A stretch of 64,000 nucleotides of DNA from Prevotella aurantiaca JCM 15754 (GTDB lineage Bacteria > Bacteroidota > Bacteroidia > Bacteroidales > Bacteroidaceae). The position numbers and the translations under genes are program-made. This document shows positions 8,201 through 28,494 of this stretch, piece by piece (position 1 is the stretch's first letter; the number at the start of each line of letters is the position of its first letter). The notes under the pieces were generated by a model. The model ran no database searches and was not told the origin of the DNA. It was given only the letters and a program-made list of their open reading frames with translations. The stretch is from NCBI RefSeq assembly GCF_000614025.1, contig NZ_BAKF01000001.1, positions 124,001-188,000 of the forward strand. The letters run 5' to 3'.

Positions 8201-10038
8201 ATGAAACCAAATCTACTTAAGAACACGGGCGCAACTATGGTTGCATTGTTCATCGCTATGCTCGCTCTAACAACTTCAGCTCACGCTCAAGGCACAGCAA
8301 GAATTATTCTCGAAGCGCACAACGTATGGGGCGACGGCAGCGGATACCAGCTGTTGCTCGATGCCGACCACAACCTTTACGGCGAAAAAATACCTTGTGG
8401 AGGACCGCTATGGAAGGACGCTAATCCGCCAGCTGACCTCTATAACGGCTTCGAATATAAGATTCCAGCTAACGCTGACCCCTCTACTACTCCGAAATAC
8501 ATGGTGGTTGACGGCGAAGACTACGTGGATATTCCTGCTGGTATATACGATTTCTGCATCACAGCACCGCAGGCTAACTCGAAAATATGGATTGCGGGAG
8601 ATGGCGATGCGCCCACAAGGGACAACGATTACAAGTTCGAAGCGGGCAAAACATACCGCTTTACAATGTATAGAAGTACGGAAGATGAGAACGATGCAGC
8701 CAAGCTTACGATTACTGGAAGTGGCGAGGTTACAACCTATAAACTATGGATTGGTGGCACACAGGTTACTTCTGATAACTGCAACGACTTGCCTCATACC
8801 GACGGAAACGTTAGCTACGACCCTGCCACAAGGTGCTTACGCTCGACAACGCAACCATCAACGCAACTGGAGATAACGATGGTATATGGTCGAAAACTGA
8901 TGGTCTGACAATTATTATTGTCGGAAATAGCACCATAAACGCTACGGGTGGCGCGGCTATCAAGGTGGAAGAATCGCACTGCACAATGGGTAGCGGCGAC
9001 AAACTGAACCTTTCGGGAAAGAAATATGCACTGAATGTTACGGCTAAAGCAAACCTATTCCTTAGTAATTGTACCATCGATTGCGATGGTTCGTTCGGCA
9101 ACGACATCAACGATGCAACGGTTTCTATCAACAATTCGAACATTACGGCTAAGGGAAAGGGCACCGAAAGTGTGCGCGGAATAGAGAAATTAACGCTCGA
9201 AGGTTGTGCTGTTACCAAACCTGCAGGGGCTACTTACGACCCAACATTGTGTGGTGTAGCGCTTAACGGTAAACTTGTTGCCGACCAGGTAAGTATCTCT
9301 ACCATTGCTGCTTACGACCTTGAGGTGGCTGGAACAAAGGTTACGGCAATGAACTGCAACGACCTTTCGAAGATTGAAGGCTTGAAAGGTAGTGCCCATT
9401 ACGACCCAACGACAAAGGTTCTGACGCTGAACAACGCTACCATAGACACGGAAAGCGAAAACGCTATCCTCTCTAACATCGACAATTTAACCGTGAAATG
9501 TATCGGCACCAATACGCTAAAGGCACAGAAAGCAGCCATTAGTTTGAAGAGTTCGCTGACCATTAATGGCGGCGGAATACTGAACGTGGAAAGCGAGAAA
9601 GATTGTGCCATCTATGTAAACAATGCCAACCTTATTGTGGAGGACTGCACCTTGAACGCTAAGAGCAAGCTCTACGGCATTTCGGGCAACAACGGTGAGA
9701 GCGAAAATCTGACCATCAGAAACGCTAACGTAACTGCTGAAGGTACGGAAAGAGGTTCTATTGTGGACTTCGCATCGCTCTTTATGGAAGGTTGTAGCAT
9801 AACGCAACCCACTGGAGCGAAGTTCGATAAGGCGAAGCATTGCGTGGTATTGAACGGCGAAAAGGTGAAAACAAAGGTGGTAATAGCAAAGAATGCCAAT
9901 GCCATCGACACGCCATCTGCCGACGAGGCAACGGCGACAACGATTTATAACCTTAGCGGTATGCGTTTGTCTGCCGAACTAAAACAGCTTCCAAAGGGCG
10001 TTTATATCGTGAATGGCAAGAAGGTTGTGAAGCCATAA
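8201..10038 (+). CDS. Secreted adhesin-like protein with DUF2436, frameshifted paralog
   Basis: Close paralog of the gene at 3478: signal peptide (MKPNLLKN to SAHAQ), DUF2436 (about residues 30-176), two beta-helix-like modules starting YKLWIGGTQVTSDNC and AYDLEVAGTKVT, and the tail GVYIVNGKKVVKP. The first frame runs off at 8830-8831, where ACAAGG should read ACAAAGG: PATKVLTLDNATIN becomes PATRCLRS and ends at 8908. The correct frame continues to 10038. Restoring one A gives 612 residues, against 614 in the paralog. The sequence is otherwise intact, so this is either a very recent mutation or a consensus error. The leader and promoter are intact. Confidence 0.82.
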
Positions 10039-14224: not shown

Positions 14225-15707
14225 TTACATTTTCATTTGCTTCTTTCCATTCACGATATACACACCCTTTGGCAGGTCTTCGAACTTGCCTGAAACGCGC
14301 ATACCATCAATGGTATATATGTTTTGTACGCCGTTCGCCTTCTCTGCGTTAGTTGCAGAGATGCCCGTTGGGTCGTATTTAATTTCTACTAAGTCGGTTA
14401 TTACCTTGCCACCAGCGTTTGCGAGTGCATAGAACTTACCGTATCCGTCGTTAAACTCCTTCCATTGAGTACCCTTTGGAGTAACTATCGAGCAGCCAGA
14501 GAAGGTTGGTATCTTCTCCATATACGAGATACTACCTGCAAATGGGAACTTAGCGTCGCCTCCAGCCTTTACTTTTACGTTGCAACGATCGAACGTCCAC
14601 TCGCCATAACTAAGGCCATTGACACCTGCATTGCCCTCGATGGTACACTGAACCACCTTCACAATGCCGTGATTTTGTATCACTTGGCGACCTGGTTTGT
14701 CCTTTGCTTCAACAGAACCTTGTAGGTTCAAGGTTGCGCCATTGCCTGAAATAGTAAGCATACAAGCGTCGTTGTTGTAGATAGCGTTGTTCAATTTCGA
14801 TGAAATGCTGTTGGTTCCAACGAGCTTAATGGTTACGCCGTCCATGAAATTCTGTATGCCATAGTATATATCTGTGGTGATAGTAGCGTTCTCAAGCGTC
14901 AGTATTCTGGTCTGAGGGTCGAACTGTACGTTTCCTTCCACGCCTTCAAGAGACGAGAGTTTCTTGCAATTATCAAGCGTAACCTTCTTTCCTGCCACCC
15001 ATAACTGGTACATTGTAGTCGATAACGATTTCTTCTTTCACCAACGAGCCATTTTTTGCCATACCCATGAGCTTGCTATCGTATGCAGCACCCTGTGGTT
15101 GAAGTAGCTTACAGCCAATAAGCGAAACGCCTTTGAGGTTCGCCATCGAAGCCATTTTCTTACCTTCGGCTCTTACGGTAGCATATTTTATGGTGAGTCT
15201 TTCGTCGTGTTTGCCGTCTTTACCCACGATTCCGTGGTTTCCTCCCTTAGCGATGACGGTACAAGCGTCTACTATCAAGCTGGCAGCATTGGCAAAAATA
15301 GCGTCGCCATCAGCGTTTTCAACGTTCAATGTTCCGCTTCCTGTCATAATCAAACGCTCTGTAAGTTGGATAGTAGAGGTGTTATTAGAACGCAATTCGT
15401 TCTTTCCTAACACGTGAATCTTCAATCCGTCTATCTTAGAATAGATAGCATCGGCACTTCCTCCATTAATTTTTGCGTTCTTTAATATCAGCATGTTGTT
15501 TTCAGGTTCGTACTTCACAGTGCCTTCAACACCCGATATTACGGTAAGGTCTTTGCAGTTGCTCGATGTAACTTGAGTACCTGCAATTGTCAAATCATAC
15601 TTTGTTTGAGCTTTAGCTTGCTGTGCACAACCGAACATAGCAACCATAATAGATGCCAACATTACTACAACTGCGCATCTGCGGCTACGTAGTAGATTGT
15701 TTTTCAT
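14225..15707 (-). CDS. Secreted two-module repeat protein, frameshifted
   Basis: Paralog of the gene at 16527-18014, without DUF2436. Signal peptide MKNNLLRSRR to QAKAQ, module 1 from YDLTIAGTQVTSSNC, module 2 from YQLWVAGKKVTLDNC, and tail GVYIVNGKKQMKM. The first frame ends at 14973. Near 15010-15015 it must shift to the frame that starts MYQLWVAG, by one extra base or two lost bases. With that correction the protein has about 493-494 residues, against 495 in the paralog. Promoter and conserved leader are intact. A recent mutation or an assembly error would both explain it. Beta-helix fold and surface location are inferred from the strand repeats and tail. Confidence 0.8.
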
Positions 15708-16526: not shown

Positions 16527-18014
16527 TTATTTAGGATTCACCACCTTCTTTCCGTTCACGATATACAAACCTTTGGGCAGCTGATTAGGCTCGCCAGCAA
16601 GGCGTACACCGCCGATGGTGTATGTGTTTTTAACCATTGTAGCTGTCGAAACAGCTGGATTGGCAATACCAGCAGGGTCGGTTGTAATGGTAACCCAGTC
16701 GGTAATAGGTTTCTCGGCTGCATCAACGAGCGTATAGTTGGTACCGTATTCGTCAGAAAATTCCTTCCAATGGGTTCCCGATTGAGCCACAAGCACACAA
16801 CCCGTAAGCTCTGGCACCTTCGCCAGATAGGCGATACTGCCTGCGAAACGATACTTTTCGTCGCCTTCTGCCTTGGCGCGTACATTGCAACGGTCGAACT
16901 TCCACTCGCCAAAACTAAGGGCATTGATGCCTGCGCTGGCCTCGATGGTGCATTGACTGATGCTTGCCGTGCCATGATTTTGGAATGCCTGACGACCTGC
17001 TTTGTCCTCCGATGCAGTGGCACCCTGCAGGTTTAGTCGGGCATTAGGGCCAACAACGCTGATCAAACAGTCGTCGTTGTTATATATAGCATTATTCAGT
17101 TGGGCTGTAATTGTATTTGTTCCAGTAAGTTTTATGGTTAGATTGTTCATGAAATTGAGTATGCCGTAGTGTTTGTTTGTGTTGATTGAGGCATTGTCTA
17201 ACGTTAATGTGCGGGTCTTAGGGTCGTAGTTTACCTTGCCTTCTACACCTGGAATGGCGGTGAGGTCGGCGCAATTGTCGAGCGTTACAATCTTTCCTGC
17301 TATCCAAAGTTGGAACACGGTGGGGTCGATAGCTATCTTGTCTTTCACCAGTGTACCATCTTTTGCGACGCCATGCAGTTCGTCGCTGAATTCAACACTC
17401 TGTGGCTGAGTGATTTTACAGCCCATAAGTGTAAGGTATTTGAAGCACCCTATCGATGCATCTTTCCCACCTTCGGCTGTTAGTGTGGCATATTTAATGG
17501 TAAGTTTTTCGTCGTTTCGTCCGTCCTCTCCTACTATTCCGTAGTTGGTTCCTCGTGCGTTTACGGTACAAGCGTCTATGGTTAGGTTAGTGCAATTGGC
17601 GTAAATGGCGTCGCCATTGGTGCATACCACGTCTAAAGAACCGCTGCCTGCGATGGTCATAGGCTCGATAAACTGTATGGTTGAGATGTAATCGGACCGC
17701 ATTTCGTTCTTTCCTGCAACGCGCAAGGTTAGTCCTTCGAGTTTAGAATAAATGGCATTGGCACCTTTTCCGTCTATTTTTGCATTCTTCAAGAATAGTG
17801 TTTTCGTGTTCGCATCATACCTAACGGTTCCTTCCACACCCGAAATTGCAGTGAGATCGTTACAGTTTTCCGACGTAACCCATGTTCCAGCGATGGCAAA
17901 ATCGTACTTTGTCTGTGCTGTTGTCTGTTGTGTTAGGCCGAAAAATGCGATGAACAAGGCTGCGAAAGTAGCGATGGCGGCCTGTCTGCGTCCATATTGT
18001 AGATAGTTTTTCAT
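16527..18014 (-). CDS. Secreted two-module repeat protein with GLYIVNGKK tail
   Basis: 495 residues, intact. Signal peptide MKNYLQYGRRQAAIATF to QTTAQ. Module 1 starts YDFAIAGTWVTSENC (about residue 36), module 2 starts FQLWIAGKIVTLDNC (about 233). Each module carries VxYDxxTKTLxLxNAxI and later IDACTVNARG-type strands, a pattern that suggests a right-handed beta-helix. The tail TYTIGGVRLAGEPNQLPKG then GLYIVNGKKVVNPK resembles a type IX secretion C-terminus. It differs from the genes at 3478 and 8201 in lacking DUF2436. It has its own promoter (18191-18199), leader (18031-18079) and terminator. Exact function unknown; surface exposure is inferred. Confidence 0.85.
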   Translation of the reverse strand: MKNYLQYGRRQAAIATFAALFIAFFGLTQQTTAQTKYDFAIAGTWVTSENCNDLTAISGVEGTVRYDANTKTLFLKNAKIDGKGANAIYSKLEGLTLRVAGKNEMRSDYISTIQFIEPMTIAGSGSLDVVCTNGDAIYANCTNLTIDACTVNARGTNYGIVGEDGRNDEKLTIKYATLTAEGGKDASIGCFKYLTLMGCKITQPQSVEFSDELHGVAKDGTLVKDKIAIDPTVFQLWIAGKIVTLDNCADLTAIPGVEGKVNYDPKTRTLTLDNASINTNKHYGILNFMNNLTIKLTGTNTITAQLNNAIYNNDDCLISVVGPNARLNLQGATASEDKAGRQAFQNHGTASISQCTIEASAGINALSFGEWKFDRCNVRAKAEGDEKYRFAGSIAYLAKVPELTGCVLVAQSGTHWKEFSDEYGTNYTLVDAAEKPITDWVTITTDPAGIANPAVSTATMVKNTYTIGGVRLAGEPNQLPKGLYIVNGKKVVNPK

Positions 18015-18199: not shown

Positions 18200-18851
18200 A
18201 AGAAAAATAATTATACTTCCTAATATTTACGCAATAATTTTCATAATTTCTTTCTGGTGTTATTAAAATGTATTCATGTAGTTTGTGTATTTTCATTCAA
18301 CTTGTGTTGCATTTCGTATAGAACGGAAATAGCCCATTGGCAGTATTGAAACACGCACCGATAGGTGCCATGTTCTTGCTGTCAATGGGCTATGTGGTCG
18401 GTTTAAAACTATAATTTGTAAATTAGTCATGCATTTGGTTCTACCACAATACTCGTAGGTTTGTAAGACGAAAGTCTTATTTGCGATTTTTCACAATGTG
18501 GCGTTTAAATTTCAATACAAAGTTAATATATCTTTAAAAGATACGCAAACTTTTCGCATTTAATTTGAAAATATTACACAAAGATGTCGCTTTCTTGATT
18601 TAAAAACATTTTGTTTCCATCGCCAAATACACCTTATAATATAATAGCAGAGGCATTCGTGAAAGTCATTTTTTTGTCGATTGTTTTGTAAGGGGTGCGA
18701 TTCGTGAGAATATTTACAATGTGTCGGCAATTGAAAGGTTATTTTCTTGTAGAGCGTTAAAATTGCTTTCGCATCGCACAAGCGCAAACGTTTGCACTCA
18801 AAAATATGCAAAAAAGATGCTAATTGTGTAGGTACTTTCAAATATACTGCG

Positions 18852-19073
18852 TACCTTTGCATCAGAAAAAGGCCGAGATAGGTTGTATAGTTTAAAGGTA
18901 AACAGATTTTTCATGATAATTATTAACAGGTAATTTTTATTAAAAGAGACTTAAAAATCAAATGAAATATTTTGAATACTTCATGTAAATAGTTTTTCAT
19001 AGGTATAAATTCAGATTATATTTTTGGTTCTATGGGTCCCATAAGCTGTGAAGCTTGTGGGCCTTTTTTTTTT
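18852..19073 (+). ncRNA. Orphan transcript: promoter, aromatic leader peptide, strong terminator
   Basis: TACCTTTGC at 18852-18860 is a good -7 element. An eight-codon frame at 18962-18988 encodes MKYFEYFM, four of eight residues being Tyr or Phe. At 19035-19073 a strong intrinsic terminator follows: CCCATAAGCT pairs with AGCTTGTGGG around GTGA, then ten or more T. The start of the transcript (AAAAAGGCC at about 18865) could pair with the end (GGCCTTTTT). This looks like an aromatic amino acid attenuator, but no gene follows on this strand for 8 kb. A small RNA or a relic of an attenuator are the options. Confidence 0.45.
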
Positions 19074-19730: not shown

Positions 19731-21905
19731 TTATGCATAAGAGTGCATACCGCCCAGAATATAGTTTACTCCAAAGTAAGTCATAAGTATACAGAGGAAC
19801 GACAGCAACATAAAACGGTGAAAATTGGCTGGAGTTTGTAAAGCTTTCAAGCTGTTGGTATGTAACGGAATAGCGTAAACCATAAAGGTTATCAGTGCCC
19901 AAGTCTCCTTTGGATCCCAGCCCCAATAATTCCCCCAACTTACATTTGCCCAAATAGCACCAATGAAAATGCCCAATCCGAGTGTAGCGATTGCAGGGTA
20001 TAGGAATATCTGCGAAAGGTTTGTAAGTTGCGTATTGATATGTTTTATATTCTCTTTCTTGCTGTTGCGTGTGCAGAAGAACGCCACGGCACAGACGAAA
20101 GTAAGGGATAGTAGTGCATAAGACACCATGATAATGCTGACATGAATGCTCAATAGCGGACTATTTAGTACTGGCATACGAGGTGTTATGCTGGGGTCCA
20201 TTTCGCCAAGATGGCTTACAAGGAGCATGAATCCACTGGCAAGAAGACCGAAAGTAGTTGTTATCAGTATCTTTTGCGTTGCAAATATGGATACAATCAT
20301 AATTAACCACGATAGCAACAACATTGTTTCGTAGCCGTTAGCAATAGGTATGGTGCCATTGATAATCCAACGTAAGGCCAAAACAAAGGTCAGTATGACC
20401 CACGATAACCCCATCAGCCATCTGAAATACATGTATCGACGTGGCTTAGAAAGGAAGAAAACAGACAGCAAACCGAGCGTAAGATTGCATATAAAGAGAA
20501 TGGTGGCGAAAGGAAAGCGGTTGTATATACGTTCTGCCGTAATCTCTGTGCTTGTTGGCATAATTACTCCTCCATAGCGATACTGATATTTTTGTAACTT
20601 CTGAACAAGCTCGTTCACCATGTCTATCTTGCCTTGTACAGCCAATTGGCCCGCTAAGGAAAGTATGGAATGTATGTATTGCTGTTGCTCTTTAGGCATT
20701 GAGCGAGGCAATTTATCGGTAGGTGCGAACCAATCGACGCTTCCATTCGGTGCAATATATGGAAACAGCTTAAGTGATTGTCCCTGCATTAGGTTCATTA
20801 TAAGCATCATCTTATCGTCGGTATCGAGTATTTGCTTTGCCATACCTCCTTGTTGTTCCTGTGCATCTTGCAAATATGGACCAAGAATATAACCTTGTCG
20901 GGTGAACAAAGTGCTGGGAGCAGTGTATTTGTTTAGACGCATCTTAGTTTGCATTTCACTATCTTTAATGTGCAAGATAGGTTCGTTCATCCATTCTTTT
21001 CCCCAAAACATGAAGCCCGTAAGAACCTGACAAGGTGTAAAGTTCTTATAGCTCTTGGCACCATATAGTTTCTTTGTGAAGTCGATGGCATAGGTTTCAA
21101 TCGGACAAATACGTCCATTGTACACGATAAGCACCTTTCCAAACTCGTCGGCAGTGGCAGTTGGCAATGCCGTTTGTGCCTTAACAGCAGAAGAGAAATC
21201 GAATAAAAGAAGTAGCGAAACAATGGATTTCGCAGCATTATTCTTCAATAAACGACGAAAATTTCCTTTGCGTTCGAAAAGCATTGCTACCAATGAGAAG
21301 AAGAGAAGTGCATATCCTGCGTAAGTAACAGGAATGCCATAAGGGTCTGAATTAACGGCAAGGTAAGAACCCTTCATATCCTCGTCGAAGCTACTTTGGT
21401 AGAGACGAGTGCCATATCCTGAATATATCTTGTTCATAGATATTTGATATTGCTCCTTCTTATCTCCTTGAACAAGGGTTACGTTCGACGCATAGTCCAT
21501 GGCAGCCATATTGCCTGCGTGGTAGGAAACGCTGAACTTGTTCAACAATAACACGAAAGGCAATTTCTCGTCGTTACCTTCTTTGGTAATATAAGTCGTT
21601 ATGGCTTTGCCTTGTCGTAAATGTATCATACCTCTTTTTGCAGTTATATGGGTGAGCAAAGCCCCCACAAGGATAACAATAAATGATAGGTGAAGAAGAA
21701 TAATAATAGGTCGGCGGACTTTCTGTTTAACAAAGTAGACAATGCCATAAGCCGCACCTACCGCCCATAACAGACAGAACCACCACGCTCCGAATATATT
21801 ATCTAAGACATAATCTAAGCTTTTGTATTTCCCAATGACCGTTCCAACAGCCATTACAACAATTATTAAAACATACAAAAACTCAAGTATTTTCTTTATC
21901 TGCAT
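19731..21905 (-). CDS. Cytochrome c biogenesis protein CcsBA (ResB-CcsA fusion)
   Basis: 724 residues from MQIKKILEFLYVLII; an upstream ATG at 21953 would add 16 residues, but the start used resembles relatives better. The N-terminal part has membrane segments and a ResB-like periplasmic region (HLRQGKAI, YQISMNKIYSGYGTRLYQSSFDED). The C-terminal part has further membrane segments and the CcsA haem-handling WWD motif WGNYWGWDPKETW near residue 660. System II synthases of this type attach haem to CxxCH motifs of exported cytochromes. The next gene upstream in the operon encodes a protein with two CxxCH motifs, a likely substrate. The downstream terminator is at 19672-19714. Confidence 0.9.
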   Translation of the reverse strand: MQIKKILEFLYVLIIVVMAVGTVIGKYKSLDYVLDNIFGAWWFCLLWAVGAAYGIVYFVKQKVRRPIIILLHLSFIVILVGALLTHITAKRGMIHLRQGKAITTYITKEGNDEKLPFVLLLNKFSVSYHAGNMAAMDYASNVTLVQGDKKEQYQISMNKIYSGYGTRLYQSSFDEDMKGSYLAVNSDPYGIPVTYAGYALLFFSLVAMLFERKGNFRRLLKNNAAKSIVSLLLLFDFSSAVKAQTALPTATADEFGKVLIVYNGRICPIETYAIDFTKKLYGAKSYKNFTPCQVLTGFMFWGKEWMNEPILHIKDSEMQTKMRLNKYTAPSTLFTRQGYILGPYLQDAQEQQGGMAKQILDTDDKMMLIMNLMQGQSLKLFPYIAPNGSVDWFAPTDKLPRSMPKEQQQYIHSILSLAGQLAVQGKIDMVNELVQKLQKYQYRYGGVIMPTSTEITAERIYNRFPFATILFICNLTLGLLSVFFLSKPRRYMYFRWLMGLSWVILTFVLALRWIINGTIPIANGYETMLLLSWLIMIVSIFATQKILITTTFGLLASGFMLLVSHLGEMDPSITPRMPVLNSPLLSIHVSIIMVSYALLSLTFVCAVAFFCTRNSKKENIKHINTQLTNLSQIFLYPAIATLGLGIFIGAIWANVSWGNYWGWDPKETWALITFMVYAIPLHTNSLKALQTPANFHRFMLLSFLCILMTYFGVNYILGGMHSYA

Positions 21906-21989
21906 TTGCCAAATAATAAAGAAGAAGATGGGTATCTCGCTTAAAGACACCACCTTCTTCTTATTTTTTAATACGTAATTATAGTTCCA

Positions 21990-23683
21990 TTAAATAGAAC
22001 GTATGAACTTAACCACCGCATCTCGATCGGCTTTCGGTAGGTTATAGAACTTTATTGCAGAATTATAAGCCTGACTATTCCTGCTGTATGCGTGCCACAT
22101 AATGGCTTCTATCTCGTTGCGCGCACGTGCATCGTGTAGTCTATCTTCCACTCCTGAGTTTAGAAGCGATAGTCCTCTACCCCACAAAGGAGTGGTTCGG
22201 CACCACGATCCATGTATATCATTCTTCATATCAAGCTTATGTTGAATGAAGTCTGAGTATGGATAAATTGTTTGATTTGCATATTTAGGCAATTGTTTGC
22301 TGCCCAATATCTTCGAAGAACCATGGTTATCGGCACCCGTTGTCCAAGAAGGACGATGGCAATGAGCACAACCGAGCTGGCCAGTAAATAGTTCTTTACC
22401 TCTTTGTACAGCCTTCTCGTTAAGGTTTCTCGCACGTGGAACAGCGATACCTCTATGCCAAACCATGAACGCATGATAGGCATCGTCTGTCATTTCAGGC
22501 TTGAAGTTGAAGTAAGGGTTATTGTATAAATCTACATCATCGCTTGGAGAGAGCAGATATGCCACCGCTTTCTTAATTCCTTCACGCGTTCCATCGTTAT
22601 AATAAGGGTGCACGTAAGACATTGGATTACTACCATTTTGCTGTATGTAATCGATAACTTTTTCGTTTTCAGACATTGCTTTTGCCCACGCTTCAGTAGA
22701 GCAAAGGTGCTTAATATCTGAACGAAGAATATTTAATTCGTCCCACAATGCTACGTCGTTCTCAAGACAACCATCAAGCAAATCGTAGTTAAAGCGTTTA
22801 ATAAACTTATTTCCGAAGTAGTCGCTGGCATAAGCTTCTGGCTTCAAAGTCTTGGTTGTGTTATCCCAAAATTCTGGGTTAAGCTCAACAAATCGGCCTT
22901 CCGACTCGTATTGTTTCTTTAAATCTTCGTTCGAAATAGCATCTATCAAGCCCAAACCTTGGAAGTTGCACGATGCAATAAGTCTTACTTCATAGTTGCT
23001 TGGCTTTGGATTGGTGTTGAAAGCCGACTGTGGAATGGCCACAGAAGGGTAACGAAGGCTGAACTTTTCACCATCAGGGAATTGCATTGGAAGTCCACTT
23101 GGCATGTCAGTAACGTTGTTCCATGTTATCTGAATCTGCTTTGGATCAACTGGAGGTAGGAAAGGTTCCACTGCTTGAAGCATTGTAAAGGTCGTCAATT
23201 GTTCGATTGGCGTTCCATTATTGCTGCCTGGAGAGTCTGGATAATACACAGAAACGATGTATCCGTTGCCCTTTACAGGTCCATATTGCTACGACTATGT
23301 CCGTGTGCATAGCCTCCTGAGTGGCAATACTCACACGAACGGCGCGAAGCAATGGGTCCCCATCCTTTATAAGGTGGCGTATCTAAAGTGTATTTGGCAC
23401 TTGCCATGAGGTCGCCACGATTAAAAAGGTCGGTTAATCCTTGTTCGTCTATTGCAGGAGTATTGTCTTCGTAACAGTTTGAAGAGACGTTTTCGGTTGT
23501 TCCGAGCTTACCTCCTGGATACCATTCTGACGCAGAAAAGTTGCCCACTGCTTGACCAACATAGGTTGCTTCCGACTCATTGGGCTGTTCAGGAGTATCA
23601 GGTACATTGTCGTCAGAGCAAGCTACGAACGACCATAATGCCGCTGTAGCCAGCAAAAAGCTGATATAGGTGTTGTATTTCAT
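21990..23683 (-). CDS. Di-heme oxidoreductase (DUF1111-type) lipoprotein, frameshifted
   Basis: The N-terminus MKYNTYISFL to WSFVACSDD is a lipoprotein signal. The first haem motif is CEYCHSGG (about residue 123), the second CAHCHRPSW in the C-terminal half. The family is related to bacterial di-haem peroxidases and often sits beside imelysin genes. The first frame stops at 23273 after SRSNMDL. Adding one G at about 23281 (GGG instead of GG) gives SNMGPVKGNGYIVSVYYPD and an open frame to 21990, 564 residues in all. The break is probably a consensus error, since the rest is well conserved. It lies 98 bp downstream of the imelysin gene and 84 bp upstream of CcsBA. Confidence 0.85.
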
Positions 23684-23781
23684 AATGCTTTATTACTTTA
23701 TTATATGTCTAGACGTAGCCTTATCTTTTTAGACAAAGCTACGTATTTTATAAGTTTTGGTAATTAGATAAAGCAAAAATT

Positions 23782-25140
23782 TTACTTATCTGCTTGTTGA
23801 TTGATCCATGTACCAGCTTCGTTGAGTGCTTCATTGAGCGCATCTACCTTGTCAATACAGTTCTTTACTTGCGCTGCACCTGGGTTGTCTATGAAGGCAA
23901 CACCGCTCTTCTTAGCAACCTCTAAAGCGTTAATAGCTTCGTTGAGTGCATTGTTCAAGTCGTTGTATTTAGCGTAATTGTACTTCTTTAAGAAGTTCAT
24001 TATAGAGTTGCTAACAGGGGTTGAAATGTTCTCTGTGCCACGAACGCCATACAAAGTATTCTTAATAGAGTAGATGTTGTCTTGATAATCCTGGAACGAG
24101 CGTTTGCTATAAGGCGATTCTATATAGTTTGCAGCATCTTCAGATGTACCTGTTCCTGTTGCAACGCGGTATGCCTGACCGAGCTTTTGGCTGGCTACTT
24201 CTTCGCAAATATTAGAGCAACCGCCCACGAAAATGTTCTGTAATGCTTCGTGCCATGTAGGGAACCAGCCGTTAGCAGTGCCTGAATAGTTCAAGTAATC
24301 GCGGTATGGAATGAACTTAGGAGATAGTCCTTGATGTCGTGTACCTGCTATTACCCACATTGCATTAGCGAGTTGTTCTTGGTGAATAGTAGGAGTTGAA
24401 AGTCCTAACCAGCCATATTCTAAGAGGTAAACCATATTGCGTAGATCGCCAGCTACTGCTGCTCCGAATGCGGCTTCGTCTATTGTTTTCACTGTAGTGA
24501 GCCCTGATTCTGTTTCATTCTCAGCATTAAAGCTTTCGATTGTACGATTTTTACCATTACGGAAGAGTATAAACTCTAATCCGTGGAAGCCCAGCACTGA
24601 GTCGAACTTACCATTATTATCGTACACATACTTTGTTGGGTTCTCGCCATTGATACCTGCTATAACGCCTTTATCGTTCAAAGCTTGTGTTAATTGGCTA
24701 TGGTCGAGTGGCCATGAGTCGATGTGTGGGTCGATTTCATTGTCTGAAGCAGCGCCATATAGGAATGCTTCGCTCTGTTCCCATTCCTTTCGGGCGTCTT
24801 TAAAAGCTTCGCAAGCATTGTCTATATCGCTTTGTGTCAGTGTTCCAGCCTTACGCTTTTGATATACTTTTTGGCATGAAAAGTATAGCACGTCCGCTCT
24901 TTTTGCTAAGTCGTGATAGGTTGGTTTCACAACTGCATTGAGGTAGTTGGCAACAATTTTGCCCATTTCTGTCTTCTCTGCATTTGTTTTACTATCGCTT
25001 TCAGCTTGGTTTAACTTGTTTTGTTGCTCCTCTGTGATGAGTGAACTTGGCACTACTTCTTCGCTACTTCCGCATGAAACAAAACCTGTTGTAAATGTTC
25101 CTACGAGCAACAACATTGCTAATTTTGTTACTTTCTTCAT
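23782..25140 (-). CDS. Imelysin family (M75-type) lipoprotein, probable iron-uptake protein
   Basis: 452 residues. The lipobox is TTGFVSCGSS near residue 23. The imelysin signature GxHxxE is present as GFHGLEFILF near residue 194. Other family blocks are visible: VLYFSCQKVYQKR, ESPYSKRSFQDYQDN and the final helical region. Members such as IrpA, EfeO and Algp7 take part in iron or metal uptake or binding; proteolysis is doubtful for most. It lies 68 bp after the porin-like gene, as the second gene of a four-gene minus-strand operon. The C-terminal Glu/Asn-rich helices are ordinary for the family. Confidence 0.9.
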   Translation of the reverse strand: MKKVTKLAMLLLVGTFTTGFVSCGSSEEVVPSSLITEEQQNKLNQAESDSKTNAEKTEMGKIVANYLNAVVKPTYHDLAKRADVLYFSCQKVYQKRKAGTLTQSDIDNACEAFKDARKEWEQSEAFLYGAASDNEIDPHIDSWPLDHSQLTQALNDKGVIAGINGENPTKYVYDNNGKFDSVLGFHGLEFILFRNGKNRTIESFNAENETESGLTTVKTIDEAAFGAAVAGDLRNMVYLLEYGWLGLSTPTIHQEQLANAMWVIAGTRHQGLSPKFIPYRDYLNYSGTANGWFPTWHEALQNIFVGGCSNICEEVASQKLGQAYRVATGTGTSEDAANYIESPYSKRSFQDYQDNIYSIKNTLYGVRGTENISTPVSNSIMNFLKKYNYAKYNDLNNALNEAINALEVAKKSGVAFIDNPGAAQVKNCIDKVDALNEALNEAGTWINQQADK

Positions 25141-25208
25141 TGTTTAAAATTTTTATACAATATTATTTTTAATGTAATATATAACGAATTGGCTATTCTA
25201 ATCCTCTG

Positions 25209-26516
25209 TTAGAGGAAGAAACCTTCGTATGCAATACCGATGTTTATAGCAGGTTCGTCGTTGTATGGTTTCTTCAACTTGCGGTAATTGTATTCTGCTT
25301 TGATTGCAATTTGTGGGATTGGGTAGTAGTTTATACCTGCTGCGAAGATGGTTTTGTTGGTCCACTGCTTTGTTGTACCATGTATATAAGAGTCGTAATA
25401 TTCTACGTGGCCAAACAAATATAGCTTTTGGTTGTCGGCATGAAGGCTATTTATCTGCGAGAAAATATCGTATCCTGCTTCAAACATCATAGCGATAGCG
25501 TGGCTTCCGAAGTTTTTTCCGTTGCCCGATTCGTAGGGTTTTACAATCTGAGTGTTAGGATATGCCAACTGTGTAATCTCTCTTGCGTTGCTTACATAGC
25601 CGTAATCGATGTTGCCTCTTGCTATCCAATTGTAACGTTTAAAGGTGAAATCGAAACTCCCGAGGTATACGTTTCCTTTAATTTTTTTCTTTGTTCCTCT
25701 TTCGCTATCGTGTGGAACGTTGTTGTGCATAGATTGTCCGACGTAGCCACTGACACCTATACGTAATCCTGGAATGGTGTAGTTGTCTATGCGTCCGAGC
25801 AATCCGTACTTGTTTGCAACTTCAAATTCGAATGGACTTGAGGTACCTTTCTGTATCCAATTTGCTCTACTAAAGTGGTAAGCATCTAAGCCTGCCAACA
25901 ATTGGGCCTCGTAACGGAAGGCTCCTTTGCGTCCCCAGAACGAGACACCTGTTTGGTGCCATGTACTGGGAAGTATTGTATTTTCGCCTTCTGGGCGATA
26001 TGCTGTAAAGAAGTTCAAGGGTTCGTGGTGTGCGTTTATCAATCCGAAAGGAACCACTATATGTCCTGCTTTGATATTAAAAGCACGTCCGAACGATTTC
26101 TGAAGCCAGAATTGCTCCAGTTCTACCTCTCCTCCTTTCTCGGTTTCGTGTTCGAATTCTATTGCTTCATCGGCCTCGTACTCTATAGATGAGCCTGTTC
26201 CACCATGTTCAAACTCTACTTCTGTACCCATACTCCAGCCTTTACCGAAGTCGTAGCCCAGGTAAATAACTGCATGGGGAATATCGAATCTGCCATGACT
26301 GGGGTCGTTTTTATAAAGATTTGGTGTTGTGTAACGATTACCATTATCGCTGTAAAAATTGCGCGAAAACACTGCTTCACCATATCCACCGATACTTAGC
26401 TTGTTTCCTTTTGCATGATTCATTACTGAATCGGCTGCGTTTACTTGAGCTTTTGCTGGTGTTATTATGCCACCCAACAATGCTCCTACTAACAAGTTTG
26501 CAAAAATCTTATTCAT
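25209..26516 (-). CDS. Outer-membrane porin-like beta-barrel
   Basis: 435 residues with a signal peptide (MNKIFANLLVGALLGG to PAKAQ). Residues about 40-435 alternate as in outer-membrane strands (LSIGGYGEAVFSRNF, FNIKAGHIVVPFGLINAHH, AIKAEYNYRKLK) and the protein ends in FFL with a terminal aromatic region. An acidic loop near residues 112-132 (EYEADEAIEFEHETEKGG) could bind cations. It resembles OprO/OprP-type porins; such proteins often accompany imelysin and di-haem genes. It is the first gene of the operon, with a promoter at 26559-26590. Confidence 0.8.
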   Translation of the reverse strand: MNKIFANLLVGALLGGIITPAKAQVNAADSVMNHAKGNKLSIGGYGEAVFSRNFYSDNGNRYTTPNLYKNDPSHGRFDIPHAVIYLGYDFGKGWSMGTEVEFEHGGTGSSIEYEADEAIEFEHETEKGGEVELEQFWLQKSFGRAFNIKAGHIVVPFGLINAHHEPLNFFTAYRPEGENTILPSTWHQTGVSFWGRKGAFRYEAQLLAGLDAYHFSRANWIQKGTSSPFEFEVANKYGLLGRIDNYTIPGLRIGVSGYVGQSMHNNVPHDSERGTKKKIKGNVYLGSFDFTFKRYNWIARGNIDYGYVSNAREITQLAYPNTQIVKPYESGNGKNFGSHAIAMMFEAGYDIFSQINSLHADNQKLYLFGHVEYYDSYIHGTTKQWTNKTIFAAGINYYPIPQIAIKAEYNYRKLKKPYNDEPAINIGIAYEGFFL

Positions 26517-27240: not shown

Positions 27241-28494
27241 ATGAAAAAAACTTTATTCGCGGCTATCGCTGCATGTTGCATCGCAACGACATCGTTCGCT
27301 CAAGAGAATTGGGTTATGAAGGTTCATACCAACTCGGGAGAGGTTAAGGAATTCCAATGCAAAGACGTTAAAGAAGTAACTTTCGATAAACCAGGTAGCA
27401 ACACATACTATGCTGATGTGGCTGTAACCAACACTTACAACATCTACTACGGCTCTGTAGCTGAAGACCTTGCTGCATATACAATACATTTAAGCGACGG
27501 CAACCTTACAACTGGTGGCCTTCCAACTGAAGTAAACAAGCACGTTCTTCGCTTAACAATACTCTCTCACCCATCACAAAACTCGTATAGTGCGGTTATT
27601 CCTGATGGTAATTACAAGCTGATTGATAATACCGACGAACTGGGTGTGTACTACAAGCAGAGTGTTTACATCGAAACGAACAAAATGAACAACAGCGGTA
27701 AGCCTGACGGATTCCTTGATTCGCTCACCGTTTGCAACCTTAACGTGGAGAAAAGAGCCGATGGCACATACAAATTGGTAGTGGAAGGCGAACTGAAAGC
27801 ACATGGAAAGGTGCGCTTTACATACGATGGTAAGTTGCAATTCGTAAACAAAGACCCTGAATCGAAATATCAACCAATTACGAATAACGTTACTTTCGTT
27901 CCTAAGAAAATGAGCGGTAGATATGTAAAAGCTACAGACACATACTGCGACTATGCTCTTACTTTCCTTAATTCAGAGGTAGACGACGAAGGTTTTATCG
28001 TTGGAGCAGGCGAATATCTAAACCTTGTGTTGCTCACAAAGTTCAATATTCCAATGGATATCAACACCATTACAGGTACATACGACATTGTAATGCCTGT
28101 TAACGGAGCTGTTTATAAAGAGGGATTGTTCGTGGGTGGTACCATGTTTAAGCGTGGTCAGATGACTTATCCTGTGGGTTCTTACTACAAAGAATTCGAC
28201 GGACAGGGCGACGAAAGATTTGGTTTGTTCAGCGCTGGTACTGTAACGGCTACTAACAACAATGGTTCTATCCACTTCGTTGGTAACTGGACAACTCCTG
28301 AAGGCAAGACTGTTAAGATGGATTACACCGCTAACGTGAGCGACATTGTAGACCAATCGCAACAGCAGGACGCTAAACCACAAGCACAGTTCAATAGCCC
28401 TGCTGCTAACTTTAACAACGCTTCGTTGAACCAACGCGTAAATATTAAAGATATTCAGAACGCAGGCAACAAAATCATTATGATTAAACGATAA
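27241..28494 (+). CDS. Secreted protein of unknown function
   Basis: 417 residues. Signal peptide MKKTLFAAIAACCIATTSFAQ. The start of the mature protein (VMKVHTNSGEVKEFQCKDVKEVTF) is an opening shared by many Prevotella exported proteins. Two similar halves seem present: YIHLSDGNL to YDGKLQF, and YALTFLNSEVDDEGFIV to HFVGNW, each with strand-rich lipid-binding-like patterns. The C-terminus (QQDAKPQAQFNSPAANF, VNIKDIQNAGNKI, IMIKR) is polar, then basic, and lacks the GxYIxxGKK tail. I do not recognise a named domain. It is monocistronic, with a strong terminator at 28569-28600. Confidence 0.75.
   Translation: MKKTLFAAIAACCIATTSFAQENWVMKVHTNSGEVKEFQCKDVKEVTFDKPGSNTYYADVAVTNTYNIYYGSVAEDLAAYTIHLSDGNLTTGGLPTEVNKHVLRLTILSHPSQNSYSAVIPDGNYKLIDNTDELGVYYKQSVYIETNKMNNSGKPDGFLDSLTVCNLNVEKRADGTYKLVVEGELKAHGKVRFTYDGKLQFVNKDPESKYQPITNNVTFVPKKMSGRYVKATDTYCDYALTFLNSEVDDEGFIVGAGEYLNLVLLTKFNIPMDINTITGTYDIVMPVNGAVYKEGLFVGGTMFKRGQMTYPVGSYYKEFDGQGDERFGLFSAGTVTATNNNGSIHFVGNWTTPEGKTVKMDYTANVSDIVDQSQQQDAKPQAQFNSPAANFNNASLNQRVNIKDIQNAGNKIIMIKR

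Follow-up and report, generated by a model that had tools for sequence, protein, structure and literature searches.

A predicted trans-acting small RNA of Prevotella, probably part of a LacI-type starch regulon

Introduction

Prevotella is a leading genus of the mouth, rumen and gut. In the genome of Prevotella aurantiaca JCM 15754, a promoter, an eight-codon frame and a strong terminator follow each other closely on the plus strand with no sizeable plus-strand gene behind them for 8 kb, which raises the question of what such a unit could be for. An earlier note on the stretch analysed here (the window, 64,000 nucleotides, positions 124,001 to 188,000 of contig NZ_BAKF01000001.1) had offered three readings: a free small RNA, the relic of an aromatic amino acid attenuator, or a regulator acting in trans. 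Taken as a whole, this earlier interpretation is partly supported. The explanation that we consider likely is a stand-alone trans-acting small RNA of ~205 nt within a LacI-type starch/maltose regulon, probably activated by a LacI-type regulator. Small RNAs of Prevotella appear to have received little study (the literature searched yielded no paper on the subject), and in the open-access literature, covered mainly through titles and the starts of abstracts, neither this RNA nor a starch regulon of LacI type was found described for the genus. The small-RNA family is new, and the predicted starch regulon in which it is placed has an unusual genus-wide promoter rule, with signs that the RNA behind the promoter turns over.

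A conserved unit between genes

The -7 promoter, the eight-codon frame and the strong terminator of the earlier note were all confirmed (at 18852-18859, at 18962-18988 and ending near 19073). The lack of a plus-strand gene for 8 kb also stands, as the first sizeable plus-strand ORF 3' of the unit in the ORF list of the window begins at 27241; closer plus-strand ORFs are of 90-141 aa and lie opposite minus-strand ORFs. The parts of the unit are as follows.

18784..18795, plus strand: palindrome GCAAACGTTTGC, predicted LacI-family operator (GCAAACGWTTGC in five of five species, 11 of 12 columns invariant)
18848..18861, plus strand: -7 promoter element with conserved flanks (TACCTTTG at 18852-18859; 12 of 14 columns invariant in five species)
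18864..19071, plus strand: predicted small RNA, ~205 nt (promoter and terminator boundaries, fold z -2.77, five species)
18908..18935, plus strand: secondary conserved stretch with TTTTCA and TAATTAT (invariant runs 18908-18913 and 18917-18923)
18962..18988, plus strand: eight-residue frame ATGAAATATTTTGAATACTTCATGTAA, MKYFEYFM and stop (11 of 27 columns invariant in five species)
18994..19030, plus strand: near-invariant 37-nt RNA core (invariant runs of 27 nt and 9 nt in five species)
19034..19073, plus strand: intrinsic terminator, GC-rich hairpin and T-run (terminator scan: stem 19038-19061, then T-run)

The start of the RNA was placed by inference a few bases 3' of the -7 box, and no clear -33 box was seen by eye upstream of TACCTTTG at 18852. 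The -7 box alone is not beyond chance; the window contains 19 copies of TANNTTTGCA where 5.5 would be expected, as for promoters. The whole unit is beyond chance because it recurs in four other species with a near-invariant core and palindrome and with changed flanks. These species are P. nigrescens, P. falsenii (G017), P. pallens and the genome G108, which together with the source genome (G000) make up the five-species set. By BLAST the unit was found in P. nigrescens at 75.5% over 322 bp, the only match in the plasmid collection, and in P. falsenii at 77%, while a core scan of named genomes matched P. pallens and P. falsenii. When 299 genomes of the genus were scanned with a sequence-only model built on three copies, three of them were hit strongly (G000, G017 and G108, E 3.8e-50 to 1.9e-29); the covariance hits in a further 73 (E 1.1e-6 to 0.0096) were treated as background. 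The best core match in 27 weaker hits that were fetched (L016-L042) had at least 14 mismatches in 37, and short BLAST hits in G008, G010, G023 and G033 covered the promoter-proximal part of the query only. One replicon of G108 and the P. nigrescens replicon share a median protein identity of 87.5% across 257 orthologs, and as a guess G108 may be P. intermedia.

Conservation within the unit is concentrated in the core, where positions 18994-19020 (27 nt) and 19022-19030 (9 nt) are invariant, as are 36 of the 39 columns of 18993-19031; the G108 core is shorter by one U. The secondary stretch keeps 17 of 26 columns (18910-18935), and elsewhere the invariant columns number 5 of 26 in the middle part, 7 of 46 far upstream and 5 of 39 downstream. 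In the terminator, 89.1% of cells are paired across the five species as against 20-45% with slid partners, including two compensatory pairs for which the shuffle control is weak (60 of 500). A promoter and a terminator of its own, the conserved core and the unconserved frame support the free small RNA of the earlier note, and by these sequence features the unit is a predicted stand-alone intergenic small RNA gene. It had no match in Rfam at gathering scores, weak matches up to E 10 all lying below the gathering scores of their families, and no match in the phage and viral collections searched.

A hidden coding sequence in the core was considered and rejected. One frame reads IGINSDYIFGS, and a gene of G036 has the similar IGLNADYIFGS (translated by eye); this was taken as coincidence because, in the three species examined, a stop codon closely precedes the frame and a start codon is lacking, and the core-like hit in G036 was excluded as coding.

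A palindrome in common with starch genes

The best clue to the role of the RNA, palindrome GCAAACGTTTGC, lies 56 bp 5' of the -7 box and outside the coordinates of the earlier note. In five of five small-RNA promoters, 67 or 68 bp separate the start of GCAAACGWTTGC from the -7 box. The pattern is rare, its distinct places numbering 3 (source genome), 5 (G017) and 7 (G108), whereas the reversed pattern occurs once in the source genome and in neither of the other two; of the 15 places, 11 belong to the small RNA or to starch genes. Common to all three genomes are the small RNA itself, the gap between a LacI-family and a SusC-type gene, and the promoter of a GH77 and CBM20 4-alpha-glucanotransferase; an alpha-amylase promoter is preceded by the palindrome in two of the three, the source genome not being one of them. 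The offset of 67 or 68 bp holds for all of these promoters (SusC 3/3, LacI side 3/3, amylase 2/2, GH77 3/3), and in each of the three genomes the LacI-SusC gap has a single palindrome, equally far from the two divergent promoters that it serves. The palindrome at this offset thus reads, on sequence grounds, as a feature of regulon membership. Of the four non-starch places, three are within ORFs of G108, and the fourth precedes a cfxA-type beta-lactamase gene in G017.

With a gap of 54-57 between the palindrome and TAnnTTTG, the promoter was found in 227 of 299 genomes of the genus, with the reversed control at 0 throughout. When gaps of 41-71 were allowed (31 spacings, 30 genomes), 46 of 55 matches fell at gap 55 or 56, the other nine being six at 54 or 57, two at 45 and one at 58; the corresponding binomial p of 6e-46 assumes independent matches, although related genomes are not independent. 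The same gap search returned 1 match in 12 genomes of other families. Used as a rule, the palindrome, a gap of 55 or 56 and TAnnTTTG predict that many of the 227 genomes have a starch regulon of LacI type, perhaps with an unusual activator of that type.

A LacI-family gene adjoins SusC in the source genome, G017 and G108 (Pfam checked for two of them). The palindrome is predicted to be the operator of the LacI-family regulator encoded beside the SusC-like receptor. Many LacI-family proteins use similar palindromes, so a paralogue could also bind GCAAACGTTTGC. Maltodextrin as the effector is a guess from the genes in the regulon. The palindrome ends 55-56 bp 5' of the -7 box, clear of the promoter, and lies ~74 bp before the inferred transcription start; because of this upstream position, and by analogy with class I activators, the regulator would seem to activate rather than repress. 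This is the least certain regulatory step because LacI-family proteins are better known as repressors and mostly act as such. A LacI-type protein that represses the RNA and the starch genes until maltodextrins relieve the repression would leave the promoter set unchanged. The near-fixed spacing and the single palindrome between two equidistant divergent promoters fit such a protein less well, as a repressor operator should need no fixed upstream spacing of this kind, and we regard repression as unlikely.

An identical promoter stretch with the palindrome, at gap 57, also stands before a cfxA-type beta-lactamase gene at three sites (L052 in G017, L191 in G010 and L192 in G100; family assignment checked in G017 only), either by chance or by recruitment into the regulon. 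At gap 54 the palindrome precedes similar genes for a small cysteine-rich protein in G315 (L172) and G309 (L115).

The core and its possible partners

Under activation by the LacI-type regulator, the protein encoded beside the SusC-like receptor would bind the palindrome and, when maltodextrins are present, switch on the RNA together with the starch genes. The 37-nt core would then base-pair with mRNAs made elsewhere and alter their translation, and starch use would thereby be coupled to another metabolic programme. If this is true, a small RNA that answers to a starch regulator would link starch to post-transcriptional control, in a setting where promoter, regulator and inducer are all directly testable.

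The core is predicted to be a region for base-pairing or for protein binding. Its 5' part, UUUUCAUAGGU, shows complementarity to start-codon regions that follow the pattern ACCUAUGAAAA, the sort of site to which GibS and FopS bind (PMC11697453, PMC7366714). A 22-nt antisense pattern with up to three mismatches matched solely the gene itself in each of three genomes. When duplexes were ranked over the 257 ortholog pairs of one replicon, the best energy was matched by 4 of 30 mononucleotide-shuffled cores and the mean of the top five by 2 of 30. The starts of six regulon mRNAs (the P. falsenii SusC start left out) formed duplexes no better than shuffles, SusC mRNA included. Matches to the seed ACCTATGAAA, the RNA gene included, numbered 14 in G000, 19 in G017 and 10 in G108 (reversed control 8, 2 and 2). 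At the start of an ORF of at least 50 codons, the seed match is common to G017 and G108 at glmL only. This best single candidate fits in P. nigrescens as well, and in the source genome it is broken, reading TATATGAAA. The glmL gene is a glutamate mutase accessory gene and belongs to glutamate fermentation. In a set of 40 genomes its protein turned up in two, the source genome (L291, G000:C144) and G017 (L290, G017:C65), both with the family-A RNA, and the co-occurrence may reflect clade history. The regulator acting in trans that the earlier note had proposed is supported by inference only, with no target above shuffles.

Alternatively, the core could be the site of an RNA-binding protein and the RNA a sponge rather than a base-pairing regulator. 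Most seeds are shorter than the near-invariant stretch of 37 nt, and none of the targets tried stands out; positive evidence for a sponge is absent, however, and target prediction covered the 257 ortholog pairs of one replicon only. We give this about the same low standing as repression, and a core that base-pairs with mRNAs remains the preferred reading.

Fold and reading frame

The predicted fold of the RNA, from the single sequence, is a long rod with paired ends that folds as well in 1 of 200 shuffles (z -2.77). The pairing of the two ends that the earlier note had pointed out, between AAAAAGGCC and GGCCTTTTT, is present in this fold; across the five species 65.9% of cells pair, and partners slid by 1 or 3 columns 3' do equally well. 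Six of the nine pairs are open in at least two species, and end-to-end pairing of the RNA is doubtful. A rod of this kind brings to mind a 6S-like RNA that binds RNA polymerase, and the odds of this are slightly raised by the four of nine end pairs that have changed on both sides and still pair, a number matched by 19 of 500 shuffles. It is nevertheless very improbable: a third of the end-pair cells do not pair, slid partners do as well, predicted folds vary among the five species, and the Bacteroidales-1 family, which we take to be the 6S RNA of the order, is not among the Rfam matches up to E 10. A separate Bacteroidales-1 RNA, the one copy of this genome, scores above cut-off on another contig (L009, G000:C85:6426-6614, 121 bits). 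The helix before the core (columns 127-157 of alignment A2) pairs in 95% of cells and says little, because no pair in it changes on both sides.

Least probable of all is an aromatic amino acid attenuator, relic or working, with a Tyr/Phe leader peptide. The MKYFEYFM frame does sit between promoter and terminator, yet only 11 of its 27 columns are invariant next to the near-invariant core beyond, and in the five-species alignment the frame is absent from P. falsenii and G108. Of the three species that have it, two differ in its Tyr or Phe codons: P. nigrescens has MKHFEYFM and P. pallens MKHLEYFM, with His for Tyr in both and Leu for Phe in the latter. No biosynthetic gene follows the terminator in the window, the five species have no conserved gene downstream of it, and the site found in the promoter belongs to a regulon of the starch/maltose type. 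Conservation of the leader codons was the check set by the earlier note itself; by this comparison and by synteny the attenuator is ruled out, and the frame is probably not functional as a leader peptide.

Other units without ORFs behind the same promoter

A further 66 sites were inspected, namely 65 non-divergent ones picked by eye among the matches listed and one arm of a divergent pair (L190). Checked homologues follow at 44 of them (19 amylase, 14 GH77, 9 SusC and 2 LacI). At nine sites there is no 60-codon ORF before a hairpin, in most cases with a T-run (L103, L109, L112, L119, L122, L128, L134, L135 and L167); in L103 an 88-codon frame that starts at position 94 continues across the hairpin. 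Automatic scoring rated the terminator as good in L103, L112, L122, L135 and L167 and as weak in L109, L119, L128 and L134; for these last four the hairpin was identified by eye, and the hairpin of L119 has no clear T-run. The other 13 sites belong neither to the four checked kinds of protein nor to the ORF-less units; among them are, as judged by eye, two further GH13-like genes and a pair of GH97-like ones, together with two cfxA genes and two genes for a small cysteine-rich protein, and L110, L129, L169 and others could not be assigned to a class.

In five of the nine ORF-less units, TTTTGTTGATTTARTRA stands 5' of the hairpin. A search for TTTTGTTGATTTAGTGA in 299 genomes gave five exact hits among the matches listed, of which four were the source units and the fifth, L166 (G150), was found by the RNA sequence alone and has the palindrome, a correctly spaced -7 box and a terminator. 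With up to two mismatches the core-B pattern matched in 175 of 299 genomes; only exact core-B hits were used because the reversed control was also frequent at this threshold. L119 (G219) has TTTTTCATAGGT and ATTCAGAT in common with the core of the window. An Rfam scan of eight of the nine units (L166 and L167 outside the scan) gave no match besides a tRNA beside L122. No k-mer common to all RNA types was found, the best 7-mers, ATAGGTT among them, occurring in three of five classes, as in 15 of 200 shuffles.

Perhaps these units reflect a genus-wide 'small-RNA slot', in which a LacI-type activator drives one RNA per genome and the rigid promoter is kept while the RNA turns over. The presence of core A in the intermedia group and of core TTTTGTTGATTTAGTGA in other genomes, with further types elsewhere, seems to read this way, but we hold the idea only tentatively and think it somewhat less probable than its opposite. 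If it were true, lineages would retain the logic of the promoter and rewrite the RNA and with it the set of targets, and lineage-specific RNAs behind one conserved promoter would make a good system in which to watch small RNA evolution.

Comparison with known systems

The nearest system in logic is MasB of Bacteroides thetaiotaomicron, an intergenic and narrowly conserved small RNA that is activated by the carbohydrate regulator Cur and binds a target mRNA (PMC10994844). MasB is roughly 100 nt long, as against ~205 nt here. Cur itself is of the Crp family and not LacI-type (PMC3878776). The palindrome as a site of Cur (BT4338) was ruled out, since the proposed Cur consensus (PMC6989115) is unlike GCAAACGWTTGC.

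GibS and FopS of Bacteroides are sugar- or PUL-linked trans-encoded RNAs, and FopS represses SusC translation near the start codon (PMC7366714, PMC11697453). Like the Prevotella RNA they combine a single-stranded seed with a terminator hairpin, although their seed lies in the 5' part whereas the core here adjoins the terminator. FopS has 14 members in one genome, while the Prevotella RNA has one strong copy per genome searched. The Rfam model of FopS (RF04319) scored 17.5 bits on the unit against a gathering score of 56.

In the SusR regulon of Bacteroides, SusC-type uptake and starch genes are likewise placed under one regulator, but SusR is a membrane regulator and not of the LacI family, and the excerpt of that paper makes no mention of a small RNA (PMC3878776). 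From another phylum, a paper on the maltose regulon and MalR of Streptococcus pneumoniae contains a 12-mer identical to GCAAACGTTTGC (PMC4451989). Metatranscriptomes of periodontitis in which new ncRNAs have been reported (PMC7160235) could hold reads of the RNA.

Surroundings in the window

Neighbouring genes are common to the window and P. falsenii only, with a Cthe_2159-like gene upstream and the imelysin/di-haem set nearby. None of these neighbours was present in the stretches of 8 to 35 kb from P. nigrescens, P. pallens and G108, nor did these three have any in common with each other, the P. pallens stretch comprising just 0.6 kb upstream of the unit. Four genes or pieces of genes upstream in the window are related to each other by BLAST (8833-10038, 14225-15013, 14973-15707 and 16527-18014), and two of them match the Cthe_2159 carbohydrate-binding family just below the Pfam cut-off. 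On the minus strand, 19731-26516 holds a gene set of imelysin, di-haem oxidoreductase and a fused ResB/cytochrome c assembly protein. The di-haem oxidoreductase gene (21990-23249 and 23273-23683, minus strand) is split into two frames of 419 and 136 aa, either a broken gene or a sequencing error; it is a single protein of 592 aa in P. falsenii and a single annotated gene of 1695 bases in P. nigrescens. In P. nigrescens a like imelysin/di-haem set lies ~40 kb from the small RNA.
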